Source of the DNA: Streptomyces sp. TLI_105
Lineage (GTDB): Bacteria > Actinomycetota > Actinomycetes > Streptomycetales > Streptomycetaceae
NCBI RefSeq assembly: GCF_900105415.1
Contig: NZ_FNSM01000001.1
Span: 7,696,001-7,760,000 of the forward strand
Direction: 5' to 3'
Length of the DNA: 64,000 nucleotides
The notes under the pieces were generated by a model. The model searched no databases. It saw nothing but the letters and a program-made list of their open reading frames with translations, and had not been told where the DNA came from. Shown here piece after piece: positions 7,101 through 35,138 of the stretch; the first letter of the stretch is position 1; each line of letters begins with the position of its first letter. The position numbers and the translations under genes are program-made.

Positions 7101-10100
7101 TCGTTCTCGACCGTCTGCCCCTGACTCCCAACGGGAAGGTCGACAAGCGGGCTCTGCCCGAGCCGGCCCCCGTCGCCTCCGCCGGCCGTGCCCCGCGCAC
7201 CCCGCTGGAGGAGACCCTGCTCGCGCTCTTCGCCCGCACCCTCGACACCACCGCCGACCTCACCATCGACGACGACTTCTTCCACCACGGCGGGCATTCG
7301 CTGCTCGCTGCCCGGCTGACCAATCACATCGCCGAGGCGCTGGGCGCGCGGCTGACGATCCGGGACGTGTTCGGGCGCCCGACGGTGGCGGGGCTCGCGG
7401 AACTGGTCGCCGGACAGGGCGGGGGAGAAGCTCTCCCGCCGCTGGCGGCGGGGGAAGGTGCCGGCGACTCTGTGCCCGTGTCGTTCGCTCAGCGGCGGTT
7501 GTGGTTGCTGTCGGAGCTGGAGGGGGACAGTGCGGCTTACAACGTGCCGATGGTGGTGCGGTGTGAGGGCGGTTTGGACCTCGGGGCGTTGGAGTCGGCG
7601 CTGAGTGATGTGGTGGAGCGGCATGCTCCGCTGCGGACGGTGTTCGAGTCGGTGGAGGGCGAGCCGCGTCAGCGGGTCCTGCCGCCGGAGTTGGCCCGGG
7701 TTCCGGTGGAACGCCGGCGTGTCGCCGCCTCCGATGTCGACGCGGAGCTGGCGGAGCTGGCCGGTCGTGTCTTCGATCTGGCCGCGGAGCTTCCGCTGCG
7801 GGCGGTGGTGTTCGAGCTGGGTGACGGCTCGGTGGTGCTGTCGTTGGTGGTGCATCACATCGCGACGGACGGTCTGTCGAATGCCGTGTTCTTCGGGGAC
7901 CTGCAGCGAGCCTACGCGGCCCGGGTCGCCGGGGCCGAAGGGCGGGTCCTTGAGCCCTTGGCCGTGCAGTACGCGGATTACGCGGTCTGGCAGCGCCGGG
8001 TGCTGGGCGCGGCGGAGGATCCCGAAAGCGTGCTGGGCCGGGAGCTGGAGTTCTGGCGTGGGGCGTTGGAGGGGCTGCCGGAGGAGCACGGGCTGAACCT
8101 GGACCGTCCGAGGCCGGCCAGGGCCTCCCACCAGGGCGGACAGGTCGAGCTCGACCTCGGTGCGGACCTGTTCGAACGCATCACGGTCCTCGCCCGCTCG
8201 GAGGGGTGCACGCCCTTCATGGTGGTGCACGCGGCCCTGGTCGCCGCGCTGACCCGGCTGGGTGCGGGGACGGACCTGGCGATCGGCACTCCGGTCGCGG
8301 GTCGTGGTGAGCGGTCGTTGCAGGATCTGGTCGGGTTCTTCGTGAACACGCTGGTCCTGCGGACCAGTAGCGCCGGCGACCCGAGCTTCCGCGAGTTGCT
8401 GGGGCGGGTGCGTACGGCGGATCTGGACGCGTTCGCGCATCAGGAGGCCCCGTTCGACCTGGTCCTCGAAGCGGTCAACCCGACCCGGAGCCTCTCGCGC
8501 CATCCCCTCTTCCAGATCAGCCTCGGCCTCGAAGTGGGCGGCGTTCCGGAGCTGCGCCTGCCCGGCGTCCGTACCGCCGAGGTCTCCGGCCTGGTGAACG
8601 GGGCGGCGAAGTTCGACCTCGAGTTCCTGCTCCGCTCCGACGACAGCCGGGGCCTGCACGGCGCGATCGTCTTCGCGGCCGAGCTGTTCGACGAGGAGTC
8701 GGTACGGCGCATGGCGTCGGTGCTCGGCCGGGTAGTGGCCCAGGTGCTCGACGATCCCGCCCTGCCGCTCTCCTCCCTGGAGGTGCTGTCGAGCTCGGAG
8801 CGCGAGTTGCTGACCGGCCCGTGGGCGGGGACCGTCGCCGAGGTGGGCGGCGCCACCCTCGTCGGGCGGTTCGAGGAGCAGGTGGCCCGCCGCCCGGAGG
8901 CGACGGCGCTGCTCGACGGAGCCCGCGAGGTGTCGTACGCGGAGCTGAACGCGATGGCCAACCGGTGGGCCCACCACCTGCGCGCCCACGGCCTGGGCCG
9001 TGGCGACATGGCGGGTGTGCTGTGGGAGCGTGGGGTGGAGTTCGCCGCGGCGGTCATCGCCGTGGTCAAGGCCGGGGCTGGGTACACGCTCCTGGACCCG
9101 GACTTCCCGGACGAGCGACTTCGCTCGGCGGCCGCCGACGCGGGGATCAGCCACCTCGTCACCGCGCCGGCCCTCGCGGGGCGGGTCGACGGACCTTGGC
9201 AGACCCACACCGAGGCCCCCCGCGAACTCCTCTCCCACGACCCCGGCAACCTCGGTCTGCCGCTCGGCCCGGACGACCCCGCCTGCCTGATGTTCACGTC
9301 GGGTTCGACGGGTCGGCCGAAGGCGATTCTGTCGTCGCATCGCAATCTGGTGTCGACGGTGTGGGGGCAGTCGTACGGGTTGTTCGGTGCGGGTGAGGTG
9401 TTCCTGCAGTGTTCGCCGGTGTCGTGGGACGCGTTCAGTCTGGAGTTCTGGGGCGCTTTGTTGCACGGCGGGTCGACGGTGTTGCAGCCGGGGCAGCGGC
9501 CGGAGCCGGTGTTGATCGGTGAGTTGTCCCGCAGGCACGGGGTGACGATGCTGCAGTTGTCGGCGAGTCTGTTCAACTTCCTGGTGGACGAGCACCCGGA
9601 GGCCTTCGAGACGGTGACGGTCGCCTTCACGGGCGGCGAGGCGGCCTCTCCGGCGCATGTGCGCAAGCTGCAGCGGCTCAGGCCGGGCATCAGGGTCGTC
9701 AACGGTTACGGGCCGGCCGAGTCCATGGGGTTCACCACGACCCACACCGTCGAGCACAGTGACGTGGTGATCCCGGTGGGTGGGCCGCTGGTGAACAAGG
9801 CCGCCTATGTCCTGGACGCCCATCTGAACCTGTGCGCGCCGGGAGTCACCGGTGAGCTGTATCTGGCGGGCGACGGTCTCGCCCACGGATACCTGGGCCG
9901 GCCCGACCTGACCGCCCTCCGATTCGTACCGCATCCCTTTGCGGCAGCCGCTGACCGGCTGTATCGGACGGGGGATCTGGCTCACTTCGACCGGCTCGGT
10001 CGGCTGCACTACGACGGGCGGGCGGACGACCAGATCAAGATCCGTGGTTTCCGTGTCGAGCCCGGTGAGACCGAGGCCGCGCTCCTGACCCACCCGGCCG

Positions 10101-10666
10101 TCACCCAGGCCGTCGTCACCGTCCACCACGAACAGCTCGCCGCATACGTGGTCGCCGACGGGGACACGCCACTCGACGAGATCCGCCGGCACGTCGCCGA
10201 CCGGCTGCCCGAGCACCTCGTCCCGACGCACGTCATCGTTCTCGACCGACTGCCCCTGACCCCCAACGGGAAGGTCGACAAGCGGGCTCTGCCCGAGCCG
10301 GCCCCCGTCGCCTCCGCCGGCCGTGCCCCGCGCACCCCGCTGGAGGAGACCCTGCTCGCGCTCTTCGCCCGCACCCTCGACACCACCGCCGACCTCACCA
10401 TCGACGACGACTTCTTCCACCACGGCGGCCACTCCCTCCTGGGGGCCCGTCTCACCAACCACATCGCCGGGGCCCTCGACGTCCGGCTCACCATCCGCGA
10501 CGTCTTCCAGCACCCCACCCCGGCCCGGCTCGCCGAGCACATCGAATCCCTGAAGGCCGCGCCGGCGAGGAAGGCCCGTCCCGCCCTCCGGCGCCGTGCC
10601 GAGACCGAGGCGGTCGCGACCGGGACCGCCGCTCAGACCGCCACCGCGACAGAAAGGATCAGCTGA
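1118..10666 (+). CDS. NRPS-1: three-module nonribosomal peptide synthetase (C-A-T)x3
   Basis: This 3182-aa synthetase starts at an ATG behind an AGGAG-like site. Rough layout: C1 17-440 (FHHLVVDG), A1 478-960, T1 about 1000, C2 1071-1500 (VHHIATDG), A2 1530-2010, T2 about 2051, C3 2121-2560 (VHHIATDG), A3 2580-3060, T3 about 3100. C1 resembles the DhbF/EntF-type entry C domain (LSxAQRDIW, LDPxxxxYN), so the first module may accept an acyl or aminoacyl starter. Each A domain has the [10 protein letters not shown] loop, a YGPAE motif and the NGK lysine. Aligned by eye with GrsA-PheA, the specificity residues read D-A-L-L-F-V-G-I-Y for A1 and D-A-L-Q-F-G-G-G-F for both A2 and A3, so modules 2 and 3 should load the same amino acid. 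I do not assign a substrate. There is no epimerase, methyltransferase or TE domain. The stop overlaps the next start (TGATG). Confidence 0.95.
4331..8530. repeat. 3150-bp module duplication inside NRPS-1
   Basis: Modules 2 and 3 repeat at a constant offset of 3150 bp. Blocks such as 4331-4540 with 7481-7690, and 6131-6777 with 9281-9927, look identical base for base. They are separated by more divergent stretches, as expected after gene conversion. Confidence 0.85.
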
Positions 10667-11451
10667 TGAACACCTCCCCGACCCCCGCCCCCGAGGACGT
10701 CGTCTGGGACCTGCCGGGCGACCTGCCGCACCGCCTGTCGCTGCTCGTGCTCCCGCACGCCGGAGGCAACGCGCACGCGTACAGCGCCTGGCGCGAGCAC
10801 CTCCCGGCCGACGTGCGGCTGCTCATCGGCCAGTACCCGGGGCGCGGCGCCCGCTTCAGCGAGGACCTGCCCGAGTCCGTCGACGACCTGGCGCTGCCCG
10901 TGGTCGACGCGCTCCCCGCGGACACCGGTGCCCTGGTGGTGCTCGGGCACAGCATGGGCTCCCTGGTCGCCTTCGAGGTGACCCGCGCCCTGCAGGCCGT
11001 CGGCCGTACCCCGCAGGGCCTGATCGCCTCCGCCTGCCGGGCGCCGGTGCTGCCCAACCAGTGCCCGGTGCACCCGGAGCGGCTGGACGACGACCAGCTG
11101 GTCGCGGCCATCAAAGAGCGCGGCGGTACGGACGACGGCATCCTCGACGACGAGGAGCTGCGCGAGATCGTCCTGCCGTCCATCCGCGCGGACTTCGCCA
11201 TCGACGACGCCTACCGGTGCACCGCCCCGGCCGTACGGCTCGACTGCCCGGTGGCGGTGTTCGGCGGGGACGCCGACCCCATCGTCCCGGTCGACATGCT
11301 CGCAGGCTGGTCCCTGGTGGCCGGCCACCAGGTGGCCCCCGAGGTGCTGACCGGCGACCACTTCTACTTCCAGCAGGACCTGCCCGGCTTCTTCGCCCGC
11401 CTGAACCCGGTCCTGGAGACCCTGGGCGCCGCAGCACCCAGCAACGCCTGA
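10666..11451 (+). CDS. Type II thioesterase (external editing thioesterase)
   Basis: A 261-aa alpha/beta hydrolase of the usual type II thioesterase length. It has the LPHAGGNA oxyanion region near residue 30, the nucleophile elbow GHSMGS (Ser96), FGGDADPIVP with the acidic residue, and GDHFYF with the catalytic His near 229. Such enzymes clear misacylated carrier domains by hydrolysis; related hydrolase-fold proteins (SyrC, CmaE) instead shuttle aminoacyl groups between carriers but use Cys as nucleophile, and this one keeps Ser. It is translationally coupled to NRPS-1 (one-base overlap) and precedes the hydroxylase and the A-T didomain, so either editing or help in trans loading would fit. 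Family certain, exact role inferred. Confidence 0.9.
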   Translation: MNTSPTPAPEDVVWDLPGDLPHRLSLLVLPHAGGNAHAYSAWREHLPADVRLLIGQYPGRGARFSEDLPESVDDLALPVVDALPADTGALVVLGHSMGSLVAFEVTRALQAVGRTPQGLIASACRAPVLPNQCPVHPERLDDDQLVAAIKERGGTDDGILDDEELREIVLPSIRADFAIDDAYRCTAPAVRLDCPVAVFGGDADPIVPVDMLAGWSLVAGHQVAPEVLTGDHFYFQQDLPGFFARLNPVLETLGAAAPSNA

Positions 11452-11498: not shown

Positions 11499-12533
11499 AT
11501 GACCACGTACGCCCAGAGCCCGGCCACCGCCGGCATCACCGTCGTCCGGGAGCCCGGCAAGCCGGCCCTCGTCCACACCCCCGCCTTCGACACCATGGCG
11601 GAGGCCGCCGCCTGGCTGTCCGCCCAGCTCCCCGCCGTCCAGGCCGAGCTGCACCGCTCCGGCGCGGTCATGCTGCGCGGACTTCCGGTGACGGACACGG
11701 AGACGTTCGCCGAGGCGCGGGACGCCCTGATCGCCCAGCGCGCCGGCTACAAGGAGAAGGCCACCCCCCGCAGCGACTTCGGCGAAGGGGTCTTCTCCTC
11801 CACCGACCTCCCGGCCGCCCAGGCGATCCGCCTGCACAACGAGAACAGCTACACGCTGGACTTCCCCGGCGTGCTGCTCTTCGGCTGCGTCGTCGCGCCC
11901 GAGACCGGCGGCGCGACCACCGTCGGCGACATGCGCAAGGCCCTCGCGATGCTGCCGCAGGACCTGGTCGACCGGTTCGCCGAGGCCGGCTGGCTGCTGG
12001 TACGCAACTACTCCGACCTCGCGGGCATGCCGTGGCGCAAGGCGTTCTCGTCGGACGAACCCGCCGGAGCGGAGGAGTACTGCGACGCCCACGCGATCGG
12101 CTACGAGTGGCTCGACGAGGACACCCTGCGCACCCGTCAGCGCCGCTCCGCGATCATCACCCACCCGGTGACCGGCGAGCGGTCCTGGTTCAACCACTTC
12201 GCGTTCTGGAACGCCCGCAGCCTCGACGAGGACGTCCGCGAGGTCCTCACCGAGACGTTCGGCGAGGACGGTCTGCCCTTCGACACCCGCCTGGGCGACG
12301 GCACCGCCCTCACCGACGCCGAGGTGGACGCGATCAACGACGTGTACCAGGCGGTCACCCTGCGGGAGACCTGGCAGGCCGGCGACCTGATGCTCGTCGA
12401 CAACATCCTCTGCGCGCACGGCCGGGAGTCGTACACCGGAGACCGGAAGATCGTCGTCGCCATGGGGGAGCCGGTGCGGCTGTCCGACTGCTCCCCGACC
12501 ACCGCCCCCTCCACCACCCTGTACGGAAGGTGA
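11499..12533 (+). CDS. Fe(II)/2-oxoglutarate-dependent hydroxylase, TauD/SyrP/AsnO-like
   Basis: A 344-aa protein starting at the ATG behind GCGAGGAG; the frame is open further upstream but without a better start. The iron triad reads H113-x-E115 in LHNENSYT and a distal His307 in CAHGRESYTGDRK, with Arg316 placed to bind 2-oxoglutarate. HxE instead of HxD is known from AsnO and VioC, which hydroxylate the beta carbon of amino acids. SyrP and KtzO/KtzP, in the same superfamily, act on carrier-bound aspartate or glutamate. The gene immediately precedes a free-standing A-T didomain with a glutamine code, so beta-hydroxylation of T-bound glutamine (or Glu/Asp-type) residues is the most likely job. 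Family firm, substrate inferred. Confidence 0.88.
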   Translation: MTTYAQSPATAGITVVREPGKPALVHTPAFDTMAEAAAWLSAQLPAVQAELHRSGAVMLRGLPVTDTETFAEARDALIAQRAGYKEKATPRSDFGEGVFSSTDLPAAQAIRLHNENSYTLDFPGVLLFGCVVAPETGGATTVGDMRKALAMLPQDLVDRFAEAGWLLVRNYSDLAGMPWRKAFSSDEPAGAEEYCDAHAIGYEWLDEDTLRTRQRRSAIITHPVTGERSWFNHFAFWNARSLDEDVREVLTETFGEDGLPFDTRLGDGTALTDAEVDAINDVYQAVTLRETWQAGDLMLVDNILCAHGRESYTGDRKIVVAMGEPVRLSDCSPTTAPSTTLYGR

Positions 12534-12541: not shown

Positions 12542-14413
12542 ATGACCGCCGTCCTCCCCGAGCGTTCCGCCACCGTCCCCGTCTTCCCGGCCGTCACGGA
12601 CACCTGCGCCTGCGGCACCTGCGCCGCCGCCGGTACCGGCGCGGCCGACCTCCTCGCCCGGCTCGCCACCGCCCCCGGCGGACGCACCGCCGTCGTCGCC
12701 GGCGACGACCGCCTCACCTTCGACGAGCTGCGCGCCGAGGCCGCCGTGATCGCCGCCCGGCTCGCCGCCCTCGGCATCGGCCCCGAGAGCGTCGTGGCGC
12801 TCTGCCTGCCCCGGGGCGCCGCCCTGGTGACCGCGATCATCGGCACGCTCACCGCCGGAGCCGCCTACCTGCCGGTCGACCCGGCGCTGCCCGCCGACCG
12901 CCGCCGCTACCTCGTCGAGGACTCCGGCGCCGATCTGGTCGTCGTGGACGGCACGGACGGCTCCCCGGCTCCCGGCGCCCGCGCCGTGACGGTCGCCGAG
13001 CTCACGGCGACCCCGAGCGGCGGCCCGGCCCCCTCCCCGTACGCGCCGGTCCCCGTCACCGCGGACACCCTGGCCTACGTCATCTACACCTCCGGCTCCA
13101 CCGGCCGCCCGAAGGGCGTGGAGATCGGCCGAGGCGCCGCCTCCCTGCTGCTGAGGGAGCTGGAGGCGGCGGGCGCCGCCACCGGCGAGGGGGGCAGGGT
13201 CGGCTGGAACGCCTCGCCGTCGTTCGACGCCTCCGTGCAGCAGTGGACGCGGCTCTGCCGGGGCGACACCCTCGTCATGATCGACGAGGAGACCCGCCGC
13301 GACCCGTCCCTACTCGCCGCCTTCGTCGACGAGCAGGCCCTCACCGACCTGGACATCACCCCCTCGCACGCCGACCCCCTCCTCGACCTGCTCACCGAGG
13401 ACGGCGGCCCGCGCCCGCTGACCCTCCTCGTCGGCGGCGAGGCGATCAGCCCGGCGCTGTGGGACAGGCTCGTCGCCGCCCACCGCTCCGGACTGCTGCG
13501 CGCGCTCAACGTGTACGGGCCGACCGAGTGCACCGTGGACTCCACCGCAGGCTGGATCGACGGGCCGGGGGAGCCGCACATCGGCGCCGTCCTGCCGGGG
13601 CTCCGGATGCGCCTGCTCGACGAGAAGCTCGTCCCGGTCGAGCCGGGGGAGTCCGGCGAGCTGTACCTCGCGGGCCCGCGCGTGGGCCGTGGCTACCGGC
13701 ACCGGCCCGGACTGACGGCGGAGCGGTTCGTCGCCGACATCTCCGAAGACGCCTCCGGCGGACGGATGTACCGCACCGGCGACCGCTGCCGGCTGCTGCC
13801 CGACGGCCGGCTCGTCTACCTCGGCCGCGCCGACGGCCAGGTCAAGCTGCGCGGCCACCGCATCGAACTCCCGGAGATCGAAGCCGCCCTCACCCGGGTC
13901 GACGGTGTGGCCGAGGCGGCCGTGATCCTCGGCGAGGACGCCGGCGGCACCGCCTGCCTGATCGCCTACCACCGCGGCGGCGACGCCACCGCCCTGCGGG
14001 CCGCGCTGGCGGGCAGCCTGCCCGCGTACATGGTGCCGAGCGCGTACGTCACGGTGGACCGGTTCGCCACCACTCCCAGCGGCAAGCTCGACCGGTCCGC
14101 CCTGGCCGCCCGCCTCGAAGCCCCGGCGGAGACGGAGTCCGAGGCGGCCGGCACCGAGGGCGGCGAGGGTCTGAACGGCCGCGCGGAGGAGCTGATCGCC
14201 CGCGTGTGGACGCAGGTCCTCGGCGCGGCCTCGATCGGCCCGGACGACAACTTCTTCAAGCTCGGCGGCCACTCCCTGCTCGCCATCAAGCTGGTCTCCC
14301 GCGTGCGGATCGAGCTGTCCGTGGCGCTCCCGGTCAAGGCCGTCTACACCCACCCGCGGCTGCGTGACCTCGCCGCCCACATCGAGGAGCTGCTGGCCGC
14401 ACAGGATGCCTGA
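12542..14413 (+). CDS. Free-standing NRPS A-T didomain, predicted glutamine-activating
   Basis: A 623-aa protein with one adenylation domain (about 30-540) and one carrier domain (FKLGGHSLL, about 575) and no condensation domain. The A core motifs are intact: [21 protein letters not shown] and SGKLDR with the catalytic Lys. Specificity residues aligned by eye with GrsA-PheA read D-A-Q-D-L-G-V-V-D, which I recall as the published glutamine code. It begins 8 bp after the hydroxylase and precedes NRPS-2, whose modules lack A domains. It probably makes a glutaminyl (or 3-hydroxyglutaminyl) thioester on its own carrier for transfer in trans, as SyrB1 does in syringomycin assembly. The N-terminus carries a CxCGTC motif of unknown meaning. 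Confidence 0.9.
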   Translation: MTAVLPERSATVPVFPAVTDTCACGTCAAAGTGAADLLARLATAPGGRTAVVAGDDRLTFDELRAEAAVIAARLAALGIGPESVVALCLPRGAALVTAIIGTLTAGAAYLPVDPALPADRRRYLVEDSGADLVVVDGTDGSPAPGARAVTVAELTATPSGGPAPSPYAPVPVTADTLAYVIYTSGSTGRPKGVEIGRGAASLLLRELEAAGAATGEGGRVGWNASPSFDASVQQWTRLCRGDTLVMIDEETRRDPSLLAAFVDEQALTDLDITPSHADPLLDLLTEDGGPRPLTLLVGGEAISPALWDRLVAAHRSGLLRALNVYGPTECTVDSTAGWIDGPGEPHIGAVLPGLRMRLLDEKLVPVEPGESGELYLAGPRVGRGYRHRPGLTAERFVADISEDASGGRMYRTGDRCRLLPDGRLVYLGRADGQVKLRGHRIELPEIEAALTRVDGVAEAAVILGEDAGGTACLIAYHRGGDATALRAALAGSLPAYMVPSAYVTVDRFATTPSGKLDRSALAARLEAPAETESEAAGTEGGEGLNGRAEELIARVWTQVLGAASIGPDDNFFKLGGHSLLAIKLVSRVRIELSVALPVKAVYTHPRLRDLAAHIEELLAAQDA

Positions 14414-14526: not shown

Positions 14527-17500
14527 GTGATCCCCCTGTCCTACGCCCAGCGACGCCTGTGGTTCCTGAACCGGCTGGAGGGTTCCTCCTCGGCCTACAA
14601 CGCGCCGGTGGTGCTCCGGCTGGGATCGATGCCCGACCCGGCCGCGCTCCGGGCGGCCGTACGGGACGTGGTGGAGCGTCACGAGGTGCTCCGGACCGTG
14701 TACCCGGCCCTGGACGAGGAGCCGTACCAGAAGATCCTCGACGACGCCGACGTGCGCTTCGACGTGGAGGAGTGCGGTGCGGGCGAGGACGTGACGGCCC
14801 GGACGACGGCGTTCGCCCGGCTCCCCGTGGACGTGACGCACGAACTGCCGCTCCGGGCAAGGCTGTTCAAAGTCGACGACGGGACGGCCGTCCTGGTGCT
14901 CCTCGTGCACCACATCGCCACGGACGGCTGGTCGGTGGGCTGCCTGCTCGCCGACCTCGACGCCGCCTACCGCGCCCGCGTCGAGGGCCGCGCCCCCGAC
15001 TGGGAGCCGCTGCCCGTCCAGTACGCGGACTACGCCCTGTGGCAGCGGGACATGCTCGGCGACCCCGAGGACCCCGACAGCACCGCGCACGAGCAGCTCG
15101 CCCACTGGCGCAAGGCCCTGGACGGCATACCGGCCGAGACGCGGCTGCCCGCCGACCGGCCCCGGCCCACGGAGCCCGGCCACCGGGGAGCGGTGGTCTC
15201 GGCGGAGCTGGACGCCGGCGCCCACCGGTCCCTCGCCTCCCTCGCGCGCTCCCGGCGGGGCACGTTCTTCCTGGTGGCCCGGGCCGCTCTGGCCCTCGCC
15301 CTGCGGGCGGCGGGCGCGGGCGAGGACGTGGTCGTCGGCACACCGGTGGCGGGCCGGCCCGAGGAGGACCTGCACGACCTCGTCGGGTTCTTCGTGAACA
15401 CCCTGGCCCTGCGCACGGACCTCTCGGGAGACCCCGCCCTCGGCGCGCTCGTGGACCGCGTCCGCGAGACGGACCTGATCGCGTTCGCGCACGAGGACCT
15501 GCCCTTCGACCTCCTCGTCGAGGACCTCAACCCCGAACGCTCCCTCGGCCGCCACCCGTTCTTCCAGGTCATGCTGAGCGCGCAGGTCCGGCAGGGGGAC
15601 GAGACCGTCCGGCTCGGGACCGTCCCCGCCGTCCTCGACGACGCGGACCTGGCCACCGCCAAGTTCGACCTGAGCTTCCACTGCCAGGAGACGCTCGACA
15701 GCCGGGGCGAGCCGGGCGGGGTGCTCCTCGGACTGCAGTACGCGACGGACCTGTACGACGAGGACACCGCGCGGCTCCTGCTCGCGCTGTTCCGGCGCGC
15801 GCTGACGGCCTTCGCCGAAGAGCGGGACAGCACCCCCCTCAGCCGGGTCGAGCTCCTCTCGGACGGCGAGCAGGACGCCCTCGACCGCCGCCATCTGGCT
15901 CTCGCCGAAGCGGCACGGACCCGCACCACCACCCGGCAGGAGAGGGCCGGGTCCCGTTCCGTGACGGACCCCCGCGAGGAGATCCTGAACGGCCTGTTCG
16001 CCGAGATCCTGGACCGCGACGACGTACGCCCCGGTGACAACTTCTTCAAGCTCGGCGGGCACTCCCTGCTCGCCGGCAAGCTCACCAACCGCATCCGCGG
16101 AGCCCTCGGGCTGCAGGCCGCGATCCGTGACGTCTTCCTCGCCCCGACCCCCCGACAGCTCCTCCGCCGCCTCGGCGCGCGCGGAGACGGGCCCCGCCGT
16201 CCGGCCCTGCGGCCGGTGTCGGACGGACGGCGCCCCGACCCGGTCCCCCTGTCGTACGCCCAGCGCCGGCTGTGGTTCCTGGGCCGGCTGGAGGGCCCCT
16301 CCTCGGCGTACAACGCGCCCATGGTGCTCACCCTGGACGCCCACCCCGAGACGACCGTCCTGGAGGCGGCCGTACGGGATGTGACGCGCCGTCACGAGGT
16401 GCTGCGGACGATCTACCCGGTACGGGACGGAGAGCCGTACCAGCTGATCCTGGACGCTCCGGAAGTGCGGGTCGAGGTCGAGGAGTGCGCCACGCCGGAG
16501 GACGCGCAGGCGCGGGCGACCGACTTCGCCGGGATCCCCCTGGACGTGACGCGCGAACTGCCCATCCGGGCAAAGCTGTTCGCGGTCGCGGACGGTACGG
16601 CGGTCCTCGTCCTCTCGGTCCACCACATCGCGACGGACGGCTGGTCCGTGGGCGCCCTGCTCGCCGACCTGGACACCGCCTACCGCGCCCGCGTCGAGGG
16701 CCGGGCGCCGGAGTGGGAGCCGCTGCCCGTCCAGTACACCGACTACACCCTCTGGCAGCGCGAGCTCCTCGACGGCGAACACGGCCTCCGAGACGGTCAG
16801 TCGGCGTACTGGCGCAAAGCCCTGGACGGGGTCCCGGCCGAGACGCGGCTGCCCGCCGACCGGTCCCGGCCCACCGAGCCCAGCCACCGGGGCGCGGTCG
16901 TGACGGCAGAGCTGGACGCCCTCGCCCACAAGGCGCTCGCCGGTGTCGCCCGCGGCCGCCGGGTCACGTTCTTCATGGTCGTCCGGGCCGCTCTGGCCCT
17001 CGCCCTGCGGGCGGCGGGCGCGGGCGAGGACGTGGTCGTCGGCACGGCGGTGGCCGGCCGGCCCGAGCAGGACCTGCACGACCTCGTCGGGTTCTTCGTG
17101 AACACCCTGGCCCTGCGCACAGACCTGTCCGGGGACCCCACCCTCGCCGAACTCGTACGGCGCGTCCGGGACGGGGACCTGGCGGCCTTCGCCCACGACG
17201 ACCTGCCCTTCGACCTCCTGGTCGAGGACCTCAATCCCGAACGGTCCCTCGGCAGGCACCCCTTCTTCCAGGTGATGGTCAGCGCGCAGACCACGCGGGA
17301 CACGACCGTCCGCCTCGGCGGCATCACCGGCGTGACGGACGGCGCCGACCTCGCCGGAGCCAAGTTCGACCTCGCCTTCCACTGCGCCGAGACGCACGAC
17401 ACCGGCGGCGAGCCCGGGGGAGTGCTCCTCGGACTGCAGTACGCGACGGACCTGTACGACGAGGACACCGCGCGGCTTCTGCTCTCCCTGTTCCGCCGCG

Positions 17501-20019
17501 CCCTGACGGCCTTCGCCGAGCGGGCCGGCGACACACCGCTGAGCGGGATCGACCTGCTCACCGATGAGGAACGCCGGGGGCTCGACCGGCGGCACGAGTC
17601 GCTGGCGCTCGCCCACGCCGAGCGGACGCGTGCCACCTCCGGGGACGGCCGGGGGACGGGGACGCGTGCCGTGACGGACCCCCGCGAGGAGATCCTCCGC
17701 GGCCTCTTCGCCGAAGTCCTCGACCGGGACGAGGTGCTGCCCGACGACAACTTCTTCAAGCTCGGCGGGCACTCCCTGCTCGCCGGCAAGCTCACCAACC
17801 GCATCCGCGGAGCCCTCGGGCTGCAGGCCGCGATCCGTGACGTCTTCCTCGCCCCCACGCCCCGGCAGCTGCTCCGCCGCCTCGCCGAGCGGGGCGACGG
17901 CCCCGCCCGCCCCCCGCTGCGGGCCGTCCCCGACGCGCTGCGCCCCGCGCGCGTCCCCCTGTCCGCCGCCCAGCTCCGGCTCTGGTTCCTCAACCGGCTG
18001 GAAGGCCCCAGCGCCACCTACGACATCCCCGTGGTGACCCGGCTGCACCGCCCCGTCGAGCCGGCCGTCCTGGCCGCCGCCCTGGCGGACGTCGCCGACC
18101 GGCACGAGGTGCTGCGCACCGTGTACCGGACGGCGGACGGCGAGCCGTACCAGCAGGTGCTGGCCGGTGTGACACCCGTGCTCGACGAGGTCGCGGCCGC
18201 CGGGCCGGACGAACTCCGCGCGGCCGTCGACGCGGCCGCCGGGCACGTCTTCGACCTGGCCGCCGAGATCCCCTTCCGGGCCTCGCTGGTGACGGACGGC
18301 GACGGCGGCCAGATCATGGTGCTCCTCGTCCACCACATCGCCGGCGACGGCTGGTCGACGGGCTGCCTGCTCGGCGACCTGGACCGCGCCTACCGTGCCC
18401 GCGCCGAGGGCCGGGCGCCGGAGTGGGAGCCGCTGCCCGTCCAGTACACCGACTACACCCTCTGGCAGCACGACCTCCTCGACGGCGAACACGGCGTCGC
18501 CGGCGAACAACTCGCCCACTGGCGCGAGGCCCTCGACGGGCTGCCGCCGCTCCTCGCCCTGCCCACCGACCGGTCGCGTCCCGCCGAGAGCGACGGAGCC
18601 GGCGCCCTCACCGCCTTCGAGGTCGACGCCGCCACCCACCGGGCCCTGCTGCGCGTCGCCAGGAGCAGCGGCGCCACCCTCTTCATGGTGGTGCAGGCCG
18701 CCCTCGCCGCCCTCCTCACCCGGCACGGCGCCGGCACCGACCTCGCGATCGGCACCACCGTCGCGGGGCGCGCGGACGACGCCCTGCACCCGCTCGTCGG
18801 CTTCTTCGTCAACACGCTCGTGCTGCGCACCGACACCTCCGGCGACCCCGACTTCACCGAACTGGTCCGCCGGGTCCGCGAGTCCGGGCTCGCCGCGTAC
18901 AGTCACCAGGACCTCCCCTTCGACCGGCTCGTCGAGCACCTCAGCCCGCACCGCTCCGCCGCCCACGCCCCCCTCGTCCAGGTGATGCTCCAGGTGCACG
19001 CGGCGGCGACCGGGAGCGGGACCCCGTCGGTCCTCGACGGTGACCCGGTCGCCTTCAGCGCGGCGGGCGCCAAGTCCGACCTCACCTTCGCGCTCACCGA
19101 ACTCGTCGACGCGGACGGCCGACCGGCCGGCCTGCGGGGTGCCCTGGAGTACGCCACCGCCCTCTACGACGCGGACACCGCCGCCCTCCTGGCCCGGCGC
19201 CTCGTCGAGACCCTCGACGCACTCGCCGCCGACCCCTGCACCGCGCTCTCCGGCGCGCCGTACGGCCCGGCGGCCCCCGCCGGCCCGGAGGTCGTCCTCG
19301 ACGAGCGGGGACGCCCCGCGCCCGTACGGGTGCCAGGAGAGGTCCACGAGCGGACCCCCGGCGGCGGCCTGCGCGCCACCGGGCGGCGGGCCTACGCCGA
19401 GGCCGACGGCTCCCTGCGGCCCGTGGCCACCCTCACCGCCGGCGGCTACCCGGTGGAGCCCGGCCGGGTCGAGGACGTGCTCGGCGGCCACCCGCACGTG
19501 ACCGGAGCGGCCGTCGCCGTCCGCGACGACCGGCTGTACGCCTACGTCACCCGCCTTCCCGGCGGCGCCGACGAGGCGACGCTGCGCCGCTGGGCCGCCG
19601 AGCGGCTGCCCGAGTACCTGGCCCCCGCCCGCGTCGTCGTCGTGCCCCGGCTTCCCGCACCCGGCGCTCACGCCGACGTCCTCCCCGAGACGCCGCGTTC
19701 GGCGGCGGGCCCGGACGGCAGGGAGGAACGTCTCCTCGGGATCTTCCGGGACGTCCTCGGCGGCCGCCCCCTCGGCCGGGACGACAACTTCTTCAAGTCG
19801 GGCGGGCACTCCCTGCTCGCGGTGAGGCTCCTCAACCGGATCCGCGCCGAGTTCGGCCAGGACCTCACCCTGCGGGACGTCTTCCGCAACCCGACGGCGG
19901 CGACCCTGGCCGACCGCCTGACCGGCGCGGCCGCACCCACCGACCGGCCCGCGCCCGCCGCGCCGGCGGCCCCGGCCCTGCGCCGCCGCACAGCGGCAGG
20001 ATCCCGCCGCCCCGACTGA
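14527..20019 (+). CDS. NRPS-2: C-T-C-T-C-(A remnant)-T synthetase without a functional A domain
   Basis: An 1830-aa synthetase starting at GTG with AGGAG about 11 bases upstream. Layout: C1 1-430 (HHIATDGWS), T1 about 505 ([14 protein letters not shown]), C2 570-1000 (HHIATDGWS), T2 about 1075, C3 1140-1560 (HHIAGDGWS), A remnant 1576-1720, T3 about 1752 (DNFFKSGGHSLL). All three C domains keep the HHxxxDG catalytic motif and all T domains keep the Ser. The stretch after each of the first two C domains runs through about 35 linker residues straight into T, so those modules never had or have lost the A domain. The third keeps only the small A subdomain and lacks the ATP-binding loop and the NGK lysine. 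Amino acids must therefore arrive in trans, probably from the A-T didomain and perhaps from the N-terminal A of NRPS-3. Confidence 0.93.
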   Translation: MIPLSYAQRRLWFLNRLEGSSSAYNAPVVLRLGSMPDPAALRAAVRDVVERHEVLRTVYPALDEEPYQKILDDADVRFDVEECGAGEDVTARTTAFARLPVDVTHELPLRARLFKVDDGTAVLVLLVHHIATDGWSVGCLLADLDAAYRARVEGRAPDWEPLPVQYADYALWQRDMLGDPEDPDSTAHEQLAHWRKALDGIPAETRLPADRPRPTEPGHRGAVVSAELDAGAHRSLASLARSRRGTFFLVARAALALALRAAGAGEDVVVGTPVAGRPEEDLHDLVGFFVNTLALRTDLSGDPALGALVDRVRETDLIAFAHEDLPFDLLVEDLNPERSLGRHPFFQVMLSAQVRQGDETVRLGTVPAVLDDADLATAKFDLSFHCQETLDSRGEPGGVLLGLQYATDLYDEDTARLLLALFRRALTAFAEERDSTPLSRVELLSDGEQDALDRRHLALAEAARTRTTTRQERAGSRSVTDPREEILNGLFAEILDRDDVRPGDNFFKLGGHSLLAGKLTNRIRGALGLQAAIRDVFLAPTPRQLLRRLGARGDGPRRPALRPVSDGRRPDPVPLSYAQRRLWFLGRLEGPSSAYNAPMVLTLDAHPETTVLEAAVRDVTRRHEVLRTIYPVRDGEPYQLILDAPEVRVEVEECATPEDAQARATDFAGIPLDVTRELPIRAKLFAVADGTAVLVLSVHHIATDGWSVGALLADLDTAYRARVEGRAPEWEPLPVQYTDYTLWQRELLDGEHGLRDGQSAYWRKALDGVPAETRLPADRSRPTEPSHRGAVVTAELDALAHKALAGVARGRRVTFFMVVRAALALALRAAGAGEDVVVGTAVAGRPEQDLHDLVGFFVNTLALRTDLSGDPTLAELVRRVRDGDLAAFAHDDLPFDLLVEDLNPERSLGRHPFFQVMVSAQTTRDTTVRLGGITGVTDGADLAGAKFDLAFHCAETHDTGGEPGGVLLGLQYATDLYDEDTARLLLSLFRRALTAFAERAGDTPLSGIDLLTDEERRGLDRRHESLALAHAERTRATSGDGRGTGTRAVTDPREEILRGLFAEVLDRDEVLPDDNFFKLGGHSLLAGKLTNRIRGALGLQAAIRDVFLAPTPRQLLRRLAERGDGPARPPLRAVPDALRPARVPLSAAQLRLWFLNRLEGPSATYDIPVVTRLHRPVEPAVLAAALADVADRHEVLRTVYRTADGEPYQQVLAGVTPVLDEVAAAGPDELRAAVDAAAGHVFDLAAEIPFRASLVTDGDGGQIMVLLVHHIAGDGWSTGCLLGDLDRAYRARAEGRAPEWEPLPVQYTDYTLWQHDLLDGEHGVAGEQLAHWREALDGLPPLLALPTDRSRPAESDGAGALTAFEVDAATHRALLRVARSSGATLFMVVQAALAALLTRHGAGTDLAIGTTVAGRADDALHPLVGFFVNTLVLRTDTSGDPDFTELVRRVRESGLAAYSHQDLPFDRLVEHLSPHRSAAHAPLVQVMLQVHAAATGSGTPSVLDGDPVAFSAAGAKSDLTFALTELVDADGRPAGLRGALEYATALYDADTAALLARRLVETLDALAADPCTALSGAPYGPAAPAGPEVVLDERGRPAPVRVPGEVHERTPGGGLRATGRRAYAEADGSLRPVATLTAGGYPVEPGRVEDVLGGHPHVTGAAVAVRDDRLYAYVTRLPGGADEATLRRWAAERLPEYLAPARVVVVPRLPAPGAHADVLPETPRSAAGPDGREERLLGIFRDVLGGRPLGRDDNFFKSGGHSLLAVRLLNRIRAEFGQDLTLRDVFRNPTAATLADRLTGAAAPTDRPAPAAPAAPALRRRTAAGSRRPD
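16036..17855. repeat. 1710-bp C-T module duplication in NRPS-2
   Basis: The T-domain segment 16036-16145 recurs at 17746-17855 with no visible difference, at an offset of exactly 1710 bp (570 codons). The C domains between are similar but diverged. Confidence 0.8.
19255..19690 (+). other. Vestigial adenylation subdomain inside NRPS-2
   Basis: After C3 the sequence picks up adenylation similarity only from about motif A7 (ATGRRAYAEADGSL) and A8 (GGYPVEPGRVEDVL) through AYVTRLPG and LPEYLAPARVVVV. It then reaches the T domain without an NGKxDR lysine. The large N-terminal A subdomain with the P-loop and substrate pocket (about 400 residues) is missing, so it cannot adenylate. Confidence 0.8.
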
Positions 20020-21669: not shown

Positions 21670-24600
21670 ATGCCCCCCAGCAGAACGGAAGACCTGCTCG
21701 ACGGCGGACCCTCTCCCGCCCCCGCGCCGCCCGTGCTCGACCTGATCGCCCACCAGTCGCGTACCCGCCCCGCCGCCACCGCCCTGGTCCACGCCGACGC
21801 CCGCCTGACCTACGCCGAGCTCGCCGCCGCCGTGGCGGACCGGGCCCGGGAGCTCACCGCGCGGGGCGCGGGACCCGGTCGGCTCGTCGCCCTGCACCGG
21901 CCCCGCGGCATCGACGCGATCGTCGGGCTCCTCGCCGTCCTCACCACCGGCGCCGCCTATCTGCCCCTCGACGTCCAGGCCCCCGACGCCCGCAACGAGG
22001 CGATCCTCAAGGACGCCTGCGGCGACCTGGCACCGGCGCCCGCGGACGTCGCCCGGCACGGCGAACTGGTCCTCGGCGGCCCCGGCGCCGGAGAGGGCGC
22101 GGCCTACGTCATCTACACCTCCGGATCCACCGGCACCCCCAACGGCGTGGTCGTCGCCCACGACTCGCTGGCCCACTTCATCGCGGGCGCGACCCCGGCC
22201 TACGGCATCGGTCCCGACGACGCGGTCCTCCAGTTCAGCCCGCTCCACTTCGACGCCAGCATCCAGGAGATCTTCACGACCCTCGGCGCCGGCGGCACCC
22301 TCGTCCTGCGCACCGACGACATGCTGGACGTCGCCGAACTCCTCGCGGGCTGCGCCCGGCACGGGGTCACCTACCTCGACCTGCCCGCCGCCTACTGGCA
22401 CGAGCTCGTCTACGTCCTCACCACCGGCTCCGTCCGTCTCCCCGACCGCCTGCGCACCGTCATGATCTACGGCGAGGCCGCCCTGCCCGAGCGCGTCGCC
22501 CAGTGGCGCGGCCTCGTCGGCGACCGGGTCCGGCTCCTCAACGGCTACGGCCCCACCGAGACCACCGTCGTGGCCACCGTCGCCGACCTCAGCCGGCACG
22601 ACTCCGGGCCCATCCCGATCGGCCGGCCGCTGCCCGGTGTCCGCGCCGCCGTCGTCGACGGCGAACTGTGGCTGCTCGGCGGCGGCCTGACCCGCGGCTA
22701 CCTCCACCGGCCCGAACTGAACGCCCGCCGCTTCACCGCACTCGACGGCGAGCGCGCCTACCGCACCGGCGACCTCGTCACCATCGGCGAGGACCGGCAG
22801 ATCCTCTACCACGGCCGCCTCGACGACGAGGTGAAGATCGGCGGTCAGCGCATCGACCCCGCCGCCGTCGACTCCGTCCTCGCCGGACACCCGAAGGTCC
22901 GGGAGGCCGCCGTCGTCGCCCAGCAGGACGGCGACGGCGTCAAGCGCCTCGTCGCGTTCGTGGTGACCGAGGGCGGCACGGACGCGGAGGAGCTGCGCGA
23001 CCGGGTGCGCGCGCGCATGCCGGCGGCCGCCGTGCCCGCCGTCTCGATCGTCGTCGCCCTGCCCCGCACCAGCTCGGGCAAGATCAACCGCAAGGCGCTG
23101 CGCACCGCCGACCCGCGCCTGTCCGTCGTCGACGAGGAACCCCTGCCTCCCGAGGACCGGGTCCCGCTCTCGCACGCCCAGCGCCGGCTGTGGCTGGTCG
23201 GTCAGCTCGACGGACCTTCCGCCGCGTACAACATGCCGATCGTCCTCCACCTGGAGACGGCCCCCGACCGGGCCGCGCTCGCCGCCGCCGTGGCCGACGT
23301 CGCCGAACGGCACGAGGTGCTGCGCACCGTCTTCCTCGCCCCCGAGGACGAGCCGTACCAGCACGTCCTCGCCCCCACCGCCGTCCGGCCGCGCACCGTC
23401 GAGTGCCCGAGGGGGGAACTTCCCGAGCGGGTCGCCCGGTTCGCGGCCGAGACCTTCGACCTGTCCCGCGAACTGCCCCTGCGCGTCGCCCTGTTCCTGC
23501 CTGACGACGGTCCCGGCGCCACCCTGGCCGTCCTGCTCCACCACGTCGCCGGCGACGGCTGGTCCCTCGAACCGCTGGTGACCGACCTCGCCCACGCCTA
23601 CACCGCCCGCGCCGAGGGCCGCGTCCCCGACCGGGATCCGCTGCCCGTCCAGTACGCCGACTACACGCTCTGGCAGAACGACCTCCTCGGCGACGCCGAC
23701 GACCCCGACTCCGTCACGGCCCGGGGCCTCGCCCACTGGCGCGCGGCCCTGGACGGCCTGCCCGCCGCGACCGACCTGCCCCTCGACCGGCCCCGGCCCG
23801 CCGTCCGCGCCCACGACGGCGGCCTGGTCACCGCCACCGTCGAACCGGGCGTCCACGCACGGCTCGCCCGCCTCGCCGAGGAGCACGACGCCAGCCTGCT
23901 CATGGTGCTGCAGTCCGCGCTCGCGCTCGCCCTGCGCGCCGCCGGCGCCGGAGAGCGCACCGTCCTCGGCACCCCCGTCGCCGGACGCGACGACGAGGCC
24001 CTCGACGAGCTCGTCGGCTTCTTCGTCAACACCCTGGTGCTGCCCACCGACACCACCGGCGACCCCGCCTTCACCGACCTCCTGCACCGGGTCCGCGACA
24101 CCGACCTCGCCGCCTTCGCCCACCAGCGGCTGCCCTTCGACCTCCTCGTGGAGCACCTCAACCCGCCCCGCACGCCCGGCGTCCACCCCCTCTTCCAGGT
24201 GATGCTCACCCTGCGGACCACGGGCCCCGACGCCGGACCCTTCCGCCTCGGCGCGATCGAGGGCCGCTTCGCCGGCGAAGGACCGGCCACCACCAAGTTC
24301 GACCTCACGGCCGCCTTCGAGGAACTCCGGGACGCCGACGGCGCCCCCGCCGGACTGCGGCTCGGCCTGGAGTACGCGCGCGACGTACTCGACGAGGACA
24401 CCGCCCGCGTCCTGCTCGCCGCCCTGGAGCGCGCCCTGCGCGCCGCCGCCGAGCACCCCGGGGCCCCGGTCCCGGACACCGGCCTCGTCGACCTCGCGAC
24501 CCGGCAGGCCCTGGACGAACGGCGCGCCCGCGCCGCCGCGCGCGCCGCCGAGACCACCGAGAAGGCGACGGCGCCCATCAGCACGGAGCCTCCCGCGCCG

Positions 24601-27600
24601 TACACCGACGCCCTGCGGGAACTCTTCGCCGAGGTCCTCGGCCTCGACCGGGTCGGCCCCCACGAGGGCTTCTTCACCATCGGCGGCCACTCCATGAGCG
24701 GCGTGCGCCTCGCCAACCGGATCCGCGCCCGCCTAGGCGCCGACGTCCAGGTCCGCGACCTGCTCCTCGCGCCCACCCCCGACGCCCTCGCCCGCCGCAT
24801 CGCCGCCCGGTCCACCAACCCGGAGACGGACGGCGCGCCCGAGCCCGCGCGCCCCCGCCCCGTCCCGCGCACGGACCGGCCGGAGCGCATCCCCCTGTCG
24901 TACGCCCAGCGCAGGCTGTGGTTCATCGACACCCTCGAAGGCCCCAGCGCCTCCTACAACATCCCCCTCGTCCTCCGGCCGGCACAGCCCCTCGACGCCG
25001 GCGTGCTCGCCGAGGCCCTCACCGACCTCTCCGACCGGCACGAGGTGCTCCGCACCCGCTACCGCAGCGTCGACGGCGAACCCCACCAGGAGATCCTGCC
25101 CTCCGTACGGCCCCCGCTGGACGTACGGTCCGTCCCCGCCGACCGGCTCCCGGACGCCGTCGCCGAAGCCGCGGGACACGTCTTCGACCTCGCCGAGGAG
25201 ACGCCCCTGCGCGCCACCCTCGTCACCCCCGACGACGACGGCGGACAGGTCCTGGTCCTGCTCGTCCACCACATCGCCGCCGACGGCTGGTCCACCGGCC
25301 CCCTCCTCGCCGACTTCACCGCCGCCTACCGCGCCCGCGCCGAAGACGAGGACCCCACCTGGCGGCCGCTGCCCGTCCAGTACGCCGACTACACCCTCTG
25401 GCAGCGCGACCTCCTCGACGGCCCGGCCGCCGAGGCCCACCTCGACTTCTGGGAGAAGACCCTCGCCGGCGCCCCCGCCGTGCTCGAACTCCCCTCCGCC
25501 CGCCCCCGGCCCGCCGAAGCCACCCACCGCGGCGGCCGCGCCCCCGTCACCGTCGACGCCGCCACCCACCAGGCCCTCGAAGCCGTCGCCCGGCGCGGCG
25601 GCGCCACCCTCTTCATGGTCCTCCAGGCCGCCCTGGCCGCCGTCCTCACCCGGCACGGCGCGGGCACCGACCTACCGCTCGCCACCATGACCGCAGGACG
25701 CGACGACGAGACGCTCGGCGACCTGGTCGGCTTCTTCGTCAACACCCTGGTGCTGCGCACCGACACCTCCGGCGACCCCACCTTCGCCGAACTCCTCGAA
25801 CGGGTCCGGCGGACCGACCTCGCCGCCTACGGACACCAGGAGCTCCCCTTCGACCGGGTCGTCGAGCACCTCAACCCGGTCCGCACCACCGCCCACCACC
25901 CGCTGGCCCAGATCGTCGTCCAGCTCCACCACGACTACACCCGCGACGCCCCCGGCGCGGCCGCCGCGAAGAGCCTCTTCCAGGAGGGCGGACCGGCGCT
26001 CCTCGACACCGTCTCCACCAAGTTCGACCTGACCTTCGCCCTCGACGAGCGGCGGGACGCGGAAGGCCGGCCCGCCGGCCTGGCCGGCGGCCTCGAGTAC
26101 GCCACGGACCTGTTCGACGCCCCCACCGCCGCGCTGCTCGCCGCCCACCTGGAGCGGACCCTGCGGGCCGCCGCGGCCGATCCCGGCGTACGGATCGGGG
26201 ACGTCGACCTGTTCACCGCCACCGACCGGTTCCGGCTGGTCGACGAGTACAACGACACCGCCACCGTGGCCCCCGGCGCGCCGGAGACGATCCACGAGCT
26301 GATCGGCCGCCGGGCCGCGCGCACCCCCGAAGCGCCCGCGCTGATCACCGACGAGGAGACCGTCGGCTACGGAGCGCTCGACGCCCGCGCCGACGCGCTG
26401 GCCGCCCGCCTCCGGACCGCCGGCGTGCGCCGCGGCGACACCGTCGGCGTCCTCCTCGAACGTGGCGTGTCCCTGGTGGTGACGGCCCTCGCGGTCCTCA
26501 AGTGCGGCGCCGCCTACCTTCCTGTGGACCCGCGCCTTCCCGAGGCCAGGATCCGGCTGATGCTGGAGGACGCCGGGGCACGCGTGGTGGCGACGGACCA
26601 GGACCACGTCACCGTGGTCGCCGCCCCGGCCGTTCTCCTCGTGGACGCGCCCGACGCCGCCGGGGAGCCCCTCGGCGAGGACTCCCGTGCCACCGGGGAC
26701 GACCTGATGTACGTGATGTTCACGTCCGGGTCGACGGGCCGGCCGAAGGGCGTCGGCGTCACCCACCGCAACGTCGTGGAGCTCGCCGGAGACCGCGACG
26801 TCCGCGCCGGCGGAGCGCCCCGGATGCTCGTCCACTCGGCGACCGGATTCGACGCCTCCGTCTTCGAGATCTGGGTGCCGCTCCTGAACGGCGGCAGCCT
26901 CGTCCTCACCCGCGGCGACGGCACGGACCTGGCCGAGACCGCCCGCGCCGTCCGCGAACACGGCGTCACCGCCGCCTACTTCACCGTCGGCCTCTTCCAC
27001 GTCATGGCCGACGAGGGACTGGACACGCTCCGGCTGCTGCGCGAGGTGTGGACCGGCGGCGACGTCGCCGCCCCGGCCGCCGTCCAACGGGTCCTCACCC
27101 ACTGCCCGGACACCGTCCTCGTCCACTCCTACGGCCCCACCGAGACCACCTTCGCCTCCCACAACCAGTGGTTCGGCACCGGCGAACGCACCCTGCGGGG
27201 CGCCGGACTCCACCTCGGGCGGCCGATGGACAACACCCGCAGCCACGTCCTCGACGACGCCCTGCGCCCCGTCCCGCCGGGCGTCCCCGGCGAGCTGTAC
27301 ATCGCCGGCTCGCACGTGGCCCGCGGCTACGTCGGCCGGGCCGGACTGACCGCCGAACGGTTCGTCCCCGACCCGTTCGAAGGGGACGGCAGCCGCATGT
27401 ACCGCACGGGCGACCGCGTGCTGTGGACCCCCGCGGGCGAACTCCGGTTCCTCGGAAGGGCCGACGGCCAGATCAAGCTGCGCGGCGTGCGGATCGAACC
27501 CGGAGAGGTCGAGCGGGCCCTCGCCGCGCACCCCTCGGTGGGCCAGGCCCTCGTCGTGGTCCGCGAGGACCGGCCCGGCGAGAAGAGCCTCGTGGGCTAC

Positions 27601-28809: not shown

Positions 28810-29021
28810 GCGAGTCCGTCAACCCGTTCGACAACGCCGAGGGCACCTTCCACGTCGTCGTGAACGACGAGGGCCAGCACTCCCTGTGGCCCGCCTTCGC
28901 GGACGTCCCGGCGGGCTGGACCAGCGTCTGGGGCGCTGGCGACCGCGCCGGGGCCCTGGAGTACATCACCGCCCACTGGACCGACATCCGCCCCCGCAGC
29001 CTCGTCGCCCAGTACGCCTGA
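28806..29021 (+). CDS. mbtH-like: MbtH-like NRPS accessory protein
   Basis: A 71-aa protein with the family signature: [19 protein letters not shown] at the N-terminus, [13 protein letters not shown] in the centre and a C-terminal helix [11 protein letters not shown]. MbtH-like proteins bind adenylation domains and raise their solubility or activity. The start codon overlaps the NRPS-3 stop, so production is coupled to that synthetase. It is the only MbtH in the window and could serve any of the six A domains. Confidence 0.96.
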
Positions 29022-29036
29022 CCCACCCCCGGCCGA

Positions 29037-29075
29037 AGCGCCGTGCCCCGCAGCCGATGCGGGGCACGGCGCTTT
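29037..29075 (+). terminator. Strong intrinsic-terminator-like hairpin after mbtH
   Basis: A perfect 15-bp stem, AGCGCCGTGCCCCGC with its complement, around a 7-base loop and followed by TTT. It lies 15 bases after the mbtH stop and before the mutase operon, so it probably ends the NRPS-3/mbtH transcript or attenuates read-through. Confidence 0.8.
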
Positions 29076-29185
29076 CCCCGTTCCCGCCGACAGGAAAAGG
29101 GAAGGGAATCGGCGAGCGAAAATGCCGGTCCTTGCTGCCGGTCGTACTTCCCCTTCCGGAATCCTCGGAAATCTATCCTCGACAC

Positions 29186-30906: not shown

Positions 30907-30960
30907 CCGCGCCCCGCTCCGTCACCCACGACCACCGCACCCGCCACCCGGCCCCTCACG

Positions 30961-31075: not shown

Positions 31076-31118
31076 TTGCCGCCCGACCACCCGTGCCTAC
31101 CCCGACAGGAGTTCCGCC

Positions 31119-35131: not shown

Positions 35132-35138
35132 GGCAGAC

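Follow-up and report, generated by a model that had tools for sequence, protein, structure and literature searches.

The NRPS gene cluster in the window (the whole 64,000 nt stretch of Streptomyces DNA that was analysed) encodes an eight-carrier line in which carriers 4–7 have no working adenylation (A) domain in their own module, since NRPS-2 is A-less throughout and NRPS-3 begins A-C-T. Our preferred reading, to which we assign a probability of about 0.56 on the basis of sequence comparison, is that a free-standing A-T didomain, together with a TauD-type oxygenase and a type II thioesterase (TEII), charges the carriers of NRPS-2 modules 1 and 2 (T1 and T2) and of the A-less C-T module of NRPS-3 (T4) in trans. 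The carrier of NRPS-2 module 3 (T3) would most likely be charged by N3A1, the A domain without a T domain of its own in NRPS-3.

Architecture of the assembly line

The features of the cluster, all on the forward strand, are as follows (window coordinates, strand, assignment and basis).

1118..10666, +, NRPS-1, C-A-T-C-A-T-C-A-T, pockets DALLFVGIYK, DALQFGGGFK and DALQFGGGFK (Pfam, pocket codes)
10666..11451, +, TEII with LGHSMGS, candidate editing enzyme or aminoacyl shuttle (PF00975, RifR/YbtT relatives)
11499..12533, +, TauD-type Fe(II)/2-oxoglutarate oxygenase, HNE...H triad (PF02668)
12542..14413, +, free-standing A-T didomain, pocket DAQDLGVVDK (Pfam, pocket code)
14527..20019, +, NRPS-2, C-T-C-T-C-(A remnant)-T (Pfam, motifs)
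14527..16176, +, NRPS-2 module 1, C-T, no A (coordinates, C clade)
16240..17886, +, NRPS-2 module 2, C-T, no A (coordinates, identity to module 1)
17950..19923, +, NRPS-2 module 3, C-(decayed A)-T (C tree, linker, coordinates)
19282..19725, +, 148-aa A remnant, end of the A core and C-terminal subdomain, without pocket and A10 Lys (PF13193, AlphaFold2, Foldseek)
21670..28809, +, NRPS-3, A-C-T-C-A-T-TE (Pfam)
21748..23085, +, N3A1, A domain lacking a T partner, with pocket DAQDMYGVVK (pocket code, dN/dS)
23158..24804, +, NRPS-3 module 4, fourth A-less C-T (C tree, coordinates)
24886..28761, +, terminal module C-A-T-TE, pocket DAFYWGSFAK (pocket code, coordinates)
28886..29596, +, B12-binding MutS-like glutamate mutase subunit, 3' part of ORF (PF02310; below equivalog cut-off)
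29122..30906, +, MutE-like catalytic glutamate mutase subunit, 3' part of ORF (PF06368; TIGR01503 below equivalog cut-off)
30180..32123, +, asparaginyl-tRNA-synthetase-like asparagine synthetase A, 3' part of ORF (PRK06462.1-1 above cut-off)
32075..33430, +, glutamate-synthase-like FMN protein (PF01645)
33653..35131, +, MFS exporter
35091..35882, +, 4'-phosphopantetheinyl transferase

The NRPS-2 ORF (14527–20019, +) is a single open frame with a GTG start that translates to 1,830 aa. It is a genuine coding sequence, with a GC3 of 0.946, strong Pfam matches and numerous relatives of the same layout; the many relatives of equal layout also rule out an assembly or annotation artefact, or chance, as the source of the arrangement. 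A Pfam scan of the 1,830 aa identified three Condensation domains, three PP-binding domains and one AMP-binding_C domain (residues 1648–1710, E 2.8e-10), and no AMP-binding core (PF00501). The C motifs (HHIATDG, HHIATDG and HHIAGDG) and T motifs (GGHSL in all three) are intact, so by Pfam and motifs together C and T are present with no functional A in the module, and the C-T-C-T-C-(A fragment)-T protein of the preliminary description is confirmed. The linker between C3 and T3 measures 148 aa; the same slot in locus L024 measures 511 aa and holds an intact A domain, and the terminal A domain of NRPS-3 measures 525 aa. By their coordinates, the remaining C-to-T linkers of NRPS-2 are too small to hold an A domain. 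A full A domain concealed in the linkers, the alternative named in that description, is ruled out: a search found none, all linkers being shorter than 150 aa and motif-free.

The free A-T protein lies directly upstream of NRPS-2 (12542–14413), as previously described, at a distance of 113 bp. It is adjoined by the TauD gene with its intact triad, the spacing being 47 bp between TEII and TauD and 8 bp between TauD and A-T. Beyond the earlier account, NRPS-3 contributes one more C-T module lacking A, the fourth of the line, and opens with an A domain that has no T partner and runs straight into the following C domain (25 aa gap). Nine ORFs scanned over 18 kb on the upstream side of the window encoded regulators and unrelated proteins, and none was an acyl-ligase or aryl-acid gene. 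The ORFs scanned included no MbtH gene.

Other features of the window were recorded. NRPS-1 modules 2 and 3 (5723–9904) are near-copies, with 86 % identity between A domains, 84 % between C domains and identical pockets. NRPS-2 and NRPS-3 are separated by a gap of 1.65 kb that contains two glyoxalase/bleomycin-resistance-like genes (20443–20793 and 20909–21343, both −), and judged by ORF limits this gap is shorter in three relatives (L006–L008). An Orn/Lys/Arg decarboxylase-like gene (39554–41695, −) lies outside the cluster, and a terpene synthase family 2 gene was present at 53721–54752 (−).

Relatives and conserved gene neighbourhood

Relatives were drawn from two sources, in which some entries represent the same strain. 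Protein entries (P) were the best 120 of 7,643 homologues scored, a selection biased to near kin, of which 108 were parsed, our own included, and 12 dropped. Locus entries (L) comprised at least 73 loci from a scan of genome contigs. Among the 108 parsed proteins from these best 120 matches (own included), module 3 was preceded by two C-T modules in 83 and by one in 25. The idea that three such modules in a row are rare therefore fails among the closest relatives; judged by sequence, the C-T-C-T-C-(A)-T layout is common there and is a conserved variant of trans-loaded NRPSs.

A-T and TauD genes occurred together in 44/73 loci (window excluded; at least 73 loci in the scan). These 44 also carried TEII (41), N3A1 (30), MutS together with MutE (27) and the AsnA-like gene (21), the lower counts not equating to absences as many loci stop at contig edges. 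Of 295 sampled Streptomyces genomes, 20, our own among them, gave a match to A-T with an E value of 1e-180 or lower. The GxSxG motif of TEII was found in 44/44 sequences and the TauD triad pattern in 46/46, own included in both cases. The A-T pocket, DAQDLGVVDK, corresponds to the textbook Gln code. A GrsA fragment served as the reference for reading pocket codes, and position 239 of the A-T pocket, which fell in an alignment gap, was read by eye, a second alignment giving Q. Of the 48 domains assigned to A-T, a set that contains our own and the manually added one of L019, 46 displayed the pattern DAQD.G.VD. The two deviant pockets, DALQFGGGF in L061 (frameshifted) and DARHASLMT in L059, look like those of other A domains.

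Some relatives displayed shorter or fused arrangements. A locus of S. pinistramenti (L054:8900–18026) carries A-T, TauD, TEII, an apparent MbtH gene (identified by eye) and a line T-C-T-C-A-T-TE starting from a bare T; T-C-T-C-T-C-A-T-TE is the layout of S. lydicus P0114 and P0117, and also of P0121. In L019 (3758–11455), A-T and NRPS-2 share one ORF, representing either a real fusion or an assembly error. As the A-T carrier is broken at the junction and an assembly error is possible, this fusion was left out as evidence.

Two kinds of A-less module

Phylogenetic comparison separated the A-less modules into two kinds. A quick tree (SH-aLRT support, no bootstrap) was built from 122 C domains, taken from the window and from chosen loci (23 names). 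In it, a single clade with SH-aLRT 99 comprised 40 C domains, all of them from fully A-less C-T modules and including those of NRPS-2 modules 1 and 2 and of the NRPS-3 C-T module. Its members came from Streptomyces, Actinokineospora, Micromonospora, Actinocorallia and Allorhizocola. Module 3 C domains instead clustered with those of the terminal C-A-T-TE module (31 rows, SH-aLRT 97). C domains of C-T modules in L063 (Nocardiopsis, three modules), L054, L057, L065 and L071 fell outside the A-less clade, and the C domain of the second C-T module of L040 was placed with module 3; these exceptions show that A domains have been lost elsewhere too, and the position of the three L063 modules counts against our preferred reading.

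The identities follow the same division. The C domains of modules 1 and 2 share 75 % identity and T1 and T2 share 91 %, whereas T3 shares just 48 % and 52 % with T1 and T2. In a T tree of 102 rows and few columns, the C-T carriers grouped together, with the T1, T2 and T4 kinds and the three carriers of L063 included; some carriers of intact Actinokineospora and Micromonospora modules fell among them. The T3 carriers of decayed modules lay close to the T domain of the A-T protein, a grouping with moderate support (92/84).

By these comparisons, modules 1 and 2 and the NRPS-3 C-T module belong to one A-less lineage, whereas module 3 is a C-A-T module that has lost its A domain by decay. Its C lineage and T identities rule out a single uniform set in NRPS-2. 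The groupings in the C tree also make NRPS-2 and NRPS-3 look like copies of one C-T plus C-A-T pair. As module 3 differs in C lineage, T and origin, a better-fitting prediction than three identical residues in a row is a pair of like residues, then a different one, then the first residue again.

Decay of the module 3 A domain

Mapping A-domain motifs, scored with standard patterns, onto module 3 of the relatives revealed a graded series. The A domain is intact in L024 (five of five motifs) and P0056, and lacks one of the five motifs in P0113 and P0115. It is of full length but retains no more than one motif in L025 (499 aa), L039 (512 aa), L052 (540 aa) and P0063 (508 aa), and is reduced to approximately 370–455 motif-less aa in L026, L045, P0032, P0040, P0043, P0100 and P0116. 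The linker is 204 aa in L027, and 88–162 aa in the window and the other Streptomyces read. Across the 108 parsed proteins (best 120 matches), 98 linkers were shorter than 200 aa, seven were long but dead and three were intact or nearly intact; the HH...D of C3 was retained in 107/108 of these proteins and the T3 serine in 108/108.

The remnant in NRPS-2 is an A domain truncated at its N-terminus with the C-terminal subdomain left, as in the dead A domain of SidD. AlphaFold2 modelling of the remnant plus T3 gave a mean pLDDT of 86, from which the remnant of the window is predicted to still fold, and a pTM of 0.48, which leaves the arrangement of the two domains unsure. The top Foldseek matches were NRPS A-PCP regions, for example those of DhbF and LgrA. 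In the A tree, the dead module 3 A domains of L026, L039, L045 and L052 fell, on long branches, beside DALW-type A domains; the module 3 A domain of Micromonospora P0113 has the pocket DALWIGGIF, and the two from Actinokineospora grouped with the NRPS-1 type. Values of dN/dS were 0.32–0.43 for the remnant and 0.23–0.40 for C domains, apart from C4 (0.79) and C5 (0.66) in the L006 pair, with no sharp contrast between remnant and C domains. C3 and T3 are under purifying selection by the same measure.

Distribution of N3A1

A domains directly preceding a C domain carried DA(Q/E)D codes in 35/35 cases. The A3 lysine of N3A1 is replaced by Asn in 35/37 loci and in the window, the other two loci being frameshifted with A3 not found, and automatic pattern matching left the A10 motif unmatched in L039, L045, L050 and L052. 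Across four pairs, dN/dS for N3A1 was 0.14–0.26.

The presence of N3A1 tracked the state of module 3. In the window and all 29 loci where both were readable, module 3 has 0/5 motifs, and among the at least 73 loci none combines N3A1 with an intact module 3 A domain. N3A1 is missing from its expected place in six loci with A-T and TauD; the module 3 A domain is intact or nearly so in three of these (L024, L054 and L063), degrading in L025 and decayed in L027 and L040. The association gave a one-sided Fisher value of 0.0028 (36 loci, uncorrected for ancestry) and is confounded by shared ancestry. A search of the L027 genome for N3A1 gave a best match of 40 %. The three loci without N3A1 in which module 3 is degrading or decayed indicate that N3A1 is not needed everywhere. 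Displacement of the module 3 A domain as the origin of N3A1 is disfavoured, as the A tree places N3A1 with a free-standing A domain of L065 and the module 3 A domains elsewhere.

Loading of the A-less carriers

From these data we infer the following scheme. The A-T protein would activate glutamine or a near relative and load its own T, on which TauD probably hydroxylates the residue. The residue would then pass to T1, T2 and T4, either through direct action of the A domain or by way of TEII as a shuttle. TEII could serve in editing or as a shuttle; its closest solved relatives include RifR and YbtT, and this resemblance to ordinary editing enzymes counts against the shuttle step. Module 3 would formerly have loaded its own residue, its A domain having since decayed to what may now be a structured linker, and T3 would most likely be charged by N3A1 across the NRPS-2/NRPS-3 junction, or else by A-T. 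The A-T protein is also present in Actinokineospora L024 and L025, whose line has no N3A1, and in the bare-T line of L054. Its distribution as a shared free loader supports A-T as the source for T1, T2 and T4. Loading in trans by one or two A domains, as first proposed, thus still appears the best reading, and both of the candidates named then appear right; the three modules of NRPS-2, however, do not form one set. Taken further, loading may have moved out of the line in this bacterial NRPS family, such that one A-T/oxygenase/TEII operon feeds an identical modified residue to three interchangeable C-T modules and the separate N3A1, fused to the following subunit, serves the carrier with the fossil A domain, a generalization we hold tentatively.

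The A-T protein might alternatively charge all four A-less carriers by itself, T3 included, with N3A1 redundant or regulatory and four like residues in a run. We regard this as unlikely, albeit with several points in its favour: L027 combines A-T with four A-less carriers but lacks N3A1; in L040 the decayed module 3 is followed 12 bp on by a protein starting with C; the A3 motif of N3A1 is altered; and the T tree puts the T3 carriers of decayed modules with the T domain of the A-T protein, a placement that would point to A-T as the T3 loader and counts against our scheme. N3A1 is, however, under purifying selection, module 3 has a C lineage and a T unlike those of the C-T modules, and its fossil A domains fall in a different specificity branch (DALW type, with DALWIGGIF intact in P0113).

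That T3 receives nothing at all, module 3 being skipped or serving as a pass-through carrier whose lost A domain was not replaced, seems improbable. The A domain is dead or gone in 105/108 parsed proteins (best 120 matches) and L027, L040 and L025 have no obvious loader, but the retention of the C3 HH...D (107/108) and of the T3 serine (108/108) and the purifying selection on both domains count against this reading. It seems equally improbable that another cis A domain of the line, either of the NRPS-1 DALQFGGGF type or the terminal DAFYWGSFA domain, acts on T3 in trans in the manner of CmnA-A1 on CmnI. The CmnI precedent, as given in part of the source (PMC12400406), the NRPS-1 type of the Actinokineospora module 3 A domains and the grouping of module 3 C with terminal-module C are consistent with such loading, yet it leaves unexplained why N3A1 is so frequent next to a decayed module 3. 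Charging of T3 by N3A1 remains our preferred reading.

Building blocks and product

Excerpts of PMC5357945 describe streptolydigin genes slgE1, slgE2, slgE3 and slgZ for 3-methylaspartate supply, a glutamate-synthase enzyme and an asparaginyl-tRNA-synthetase-like enzyme. MutS, MutE, glutamate-synthase-like and AsnRS-like genes likewise occur together here, the set being matched to slgE1–E3/slgZ by function rather than by sequence comparison. By this analogy, the set suggests 3-methylaspartate or its amide as a building block, although streptolydigin is a PKS-NRPS tetramate and the present line an eight-carrier NRPS. Kitasatospora L057 combines this four-gene set with DGLQFGGGF A domains and has no A-T or TauD within 28 kb, a combination hinting that NRPS-1, through its DALQ-type A domains, may take a 3-methylaspartate-type residue, that is, 3-methylaspartate or its amide.

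A literature search at the level of listings and the beginnings of abstracts yielded no paper tied to the product of the present cluster. In S. agglomeratus, antiSMASH labels one cluster as streptolydigin according to an excerpt (PMC9824969), which may be the present cluster or another one. Manikomycin was considered as a product match and looked unrelated from the part of the source available (PMC13372681).

Comparison with known systems

The comparisons below draw on excerpts of the cited papers. The closest parallels are from Streptomyces. In rotihibin biosynthesis, the A-T protein RthB and TEII RthD are proposed to supply the A-less C-T of RthA (PMC8552735), and in that of WS9326A the A-T didomains Cal22 and Cal23 occur with the A-less C-PCP of Cal19 (PMC7539972). 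The present cluster likewise combines an A-T didomain with a TEII, and its off-line A-T would similarly serve A-less C-T modules, TEII being proposed as the shuttle in those systems (PMC8552735, PMC7539972). They each have one A-less module, whereas here there are three in NRPS-2 and one in NRPS-3, a TauD oxygenase adjoins A-T and relatives display a decay series. In syringomycin biosynthesis, the A-T protein SyrB1 loads for SyrE module 9 and tailoring on T precedes transfer (PMC8949500); that system involves a halogenase, the SyrC transferase and a single A-less module, in contrast to TauD beside A-T and several A-less modules here.

In yersiniabactin HMWP2, one A domain serves three carriers, two of them in trans, and in andrimid biosynthesis A domains are free-standing throughout; for neither do the excerpts describe A-less C-T modules in series within a single protein (PMC7539972). 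Fungal SidC has consecutive A-less modules (T4 and T5) loaded by one A domain, SidD has a truncated dead A domain (dA) missing approximately 290 N-terminal residues, and loss of A domains in these proteins was followed by phylogeny (PMC10192304, PMC2644324). Loading there occurs inside one fungal protein, whereas the candidate loaders here sit on other proteins. Capreomycin CmnI is a bacterial A-less module for which trans loading was demonstrated by mass spectrometry (PMC12400406); CmnI and viomycin VioI are single A-less modules whose loader is an A domain inside the line, unlike the four A-less carriers here. In thalassospiramide biosynthesis, a module has a truncated A domain, and a different A domain is presumed to load its carrier (PMC5577590). 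Single A-less bacterial modules, one A domain for several carriers, dissociated A domains and fungal A-less runs are therefore already known. In the literature searched, no bacterial line with three or four A-less modules side by side was seen, a weak negative given that this consisted mostly of non-subscription papers, available in part.

The short lines of S. pinistramenti and S. lydicus look like small natural test systems for trans loading. More broadly, living relatives preserve one homologous module at various points of A-domain decay, ranging from a complete domain to a stub of less than 100 aa, with C and T kept, and these stages make the switch from cis to trans loading, and the marking of T domains, directly testable.
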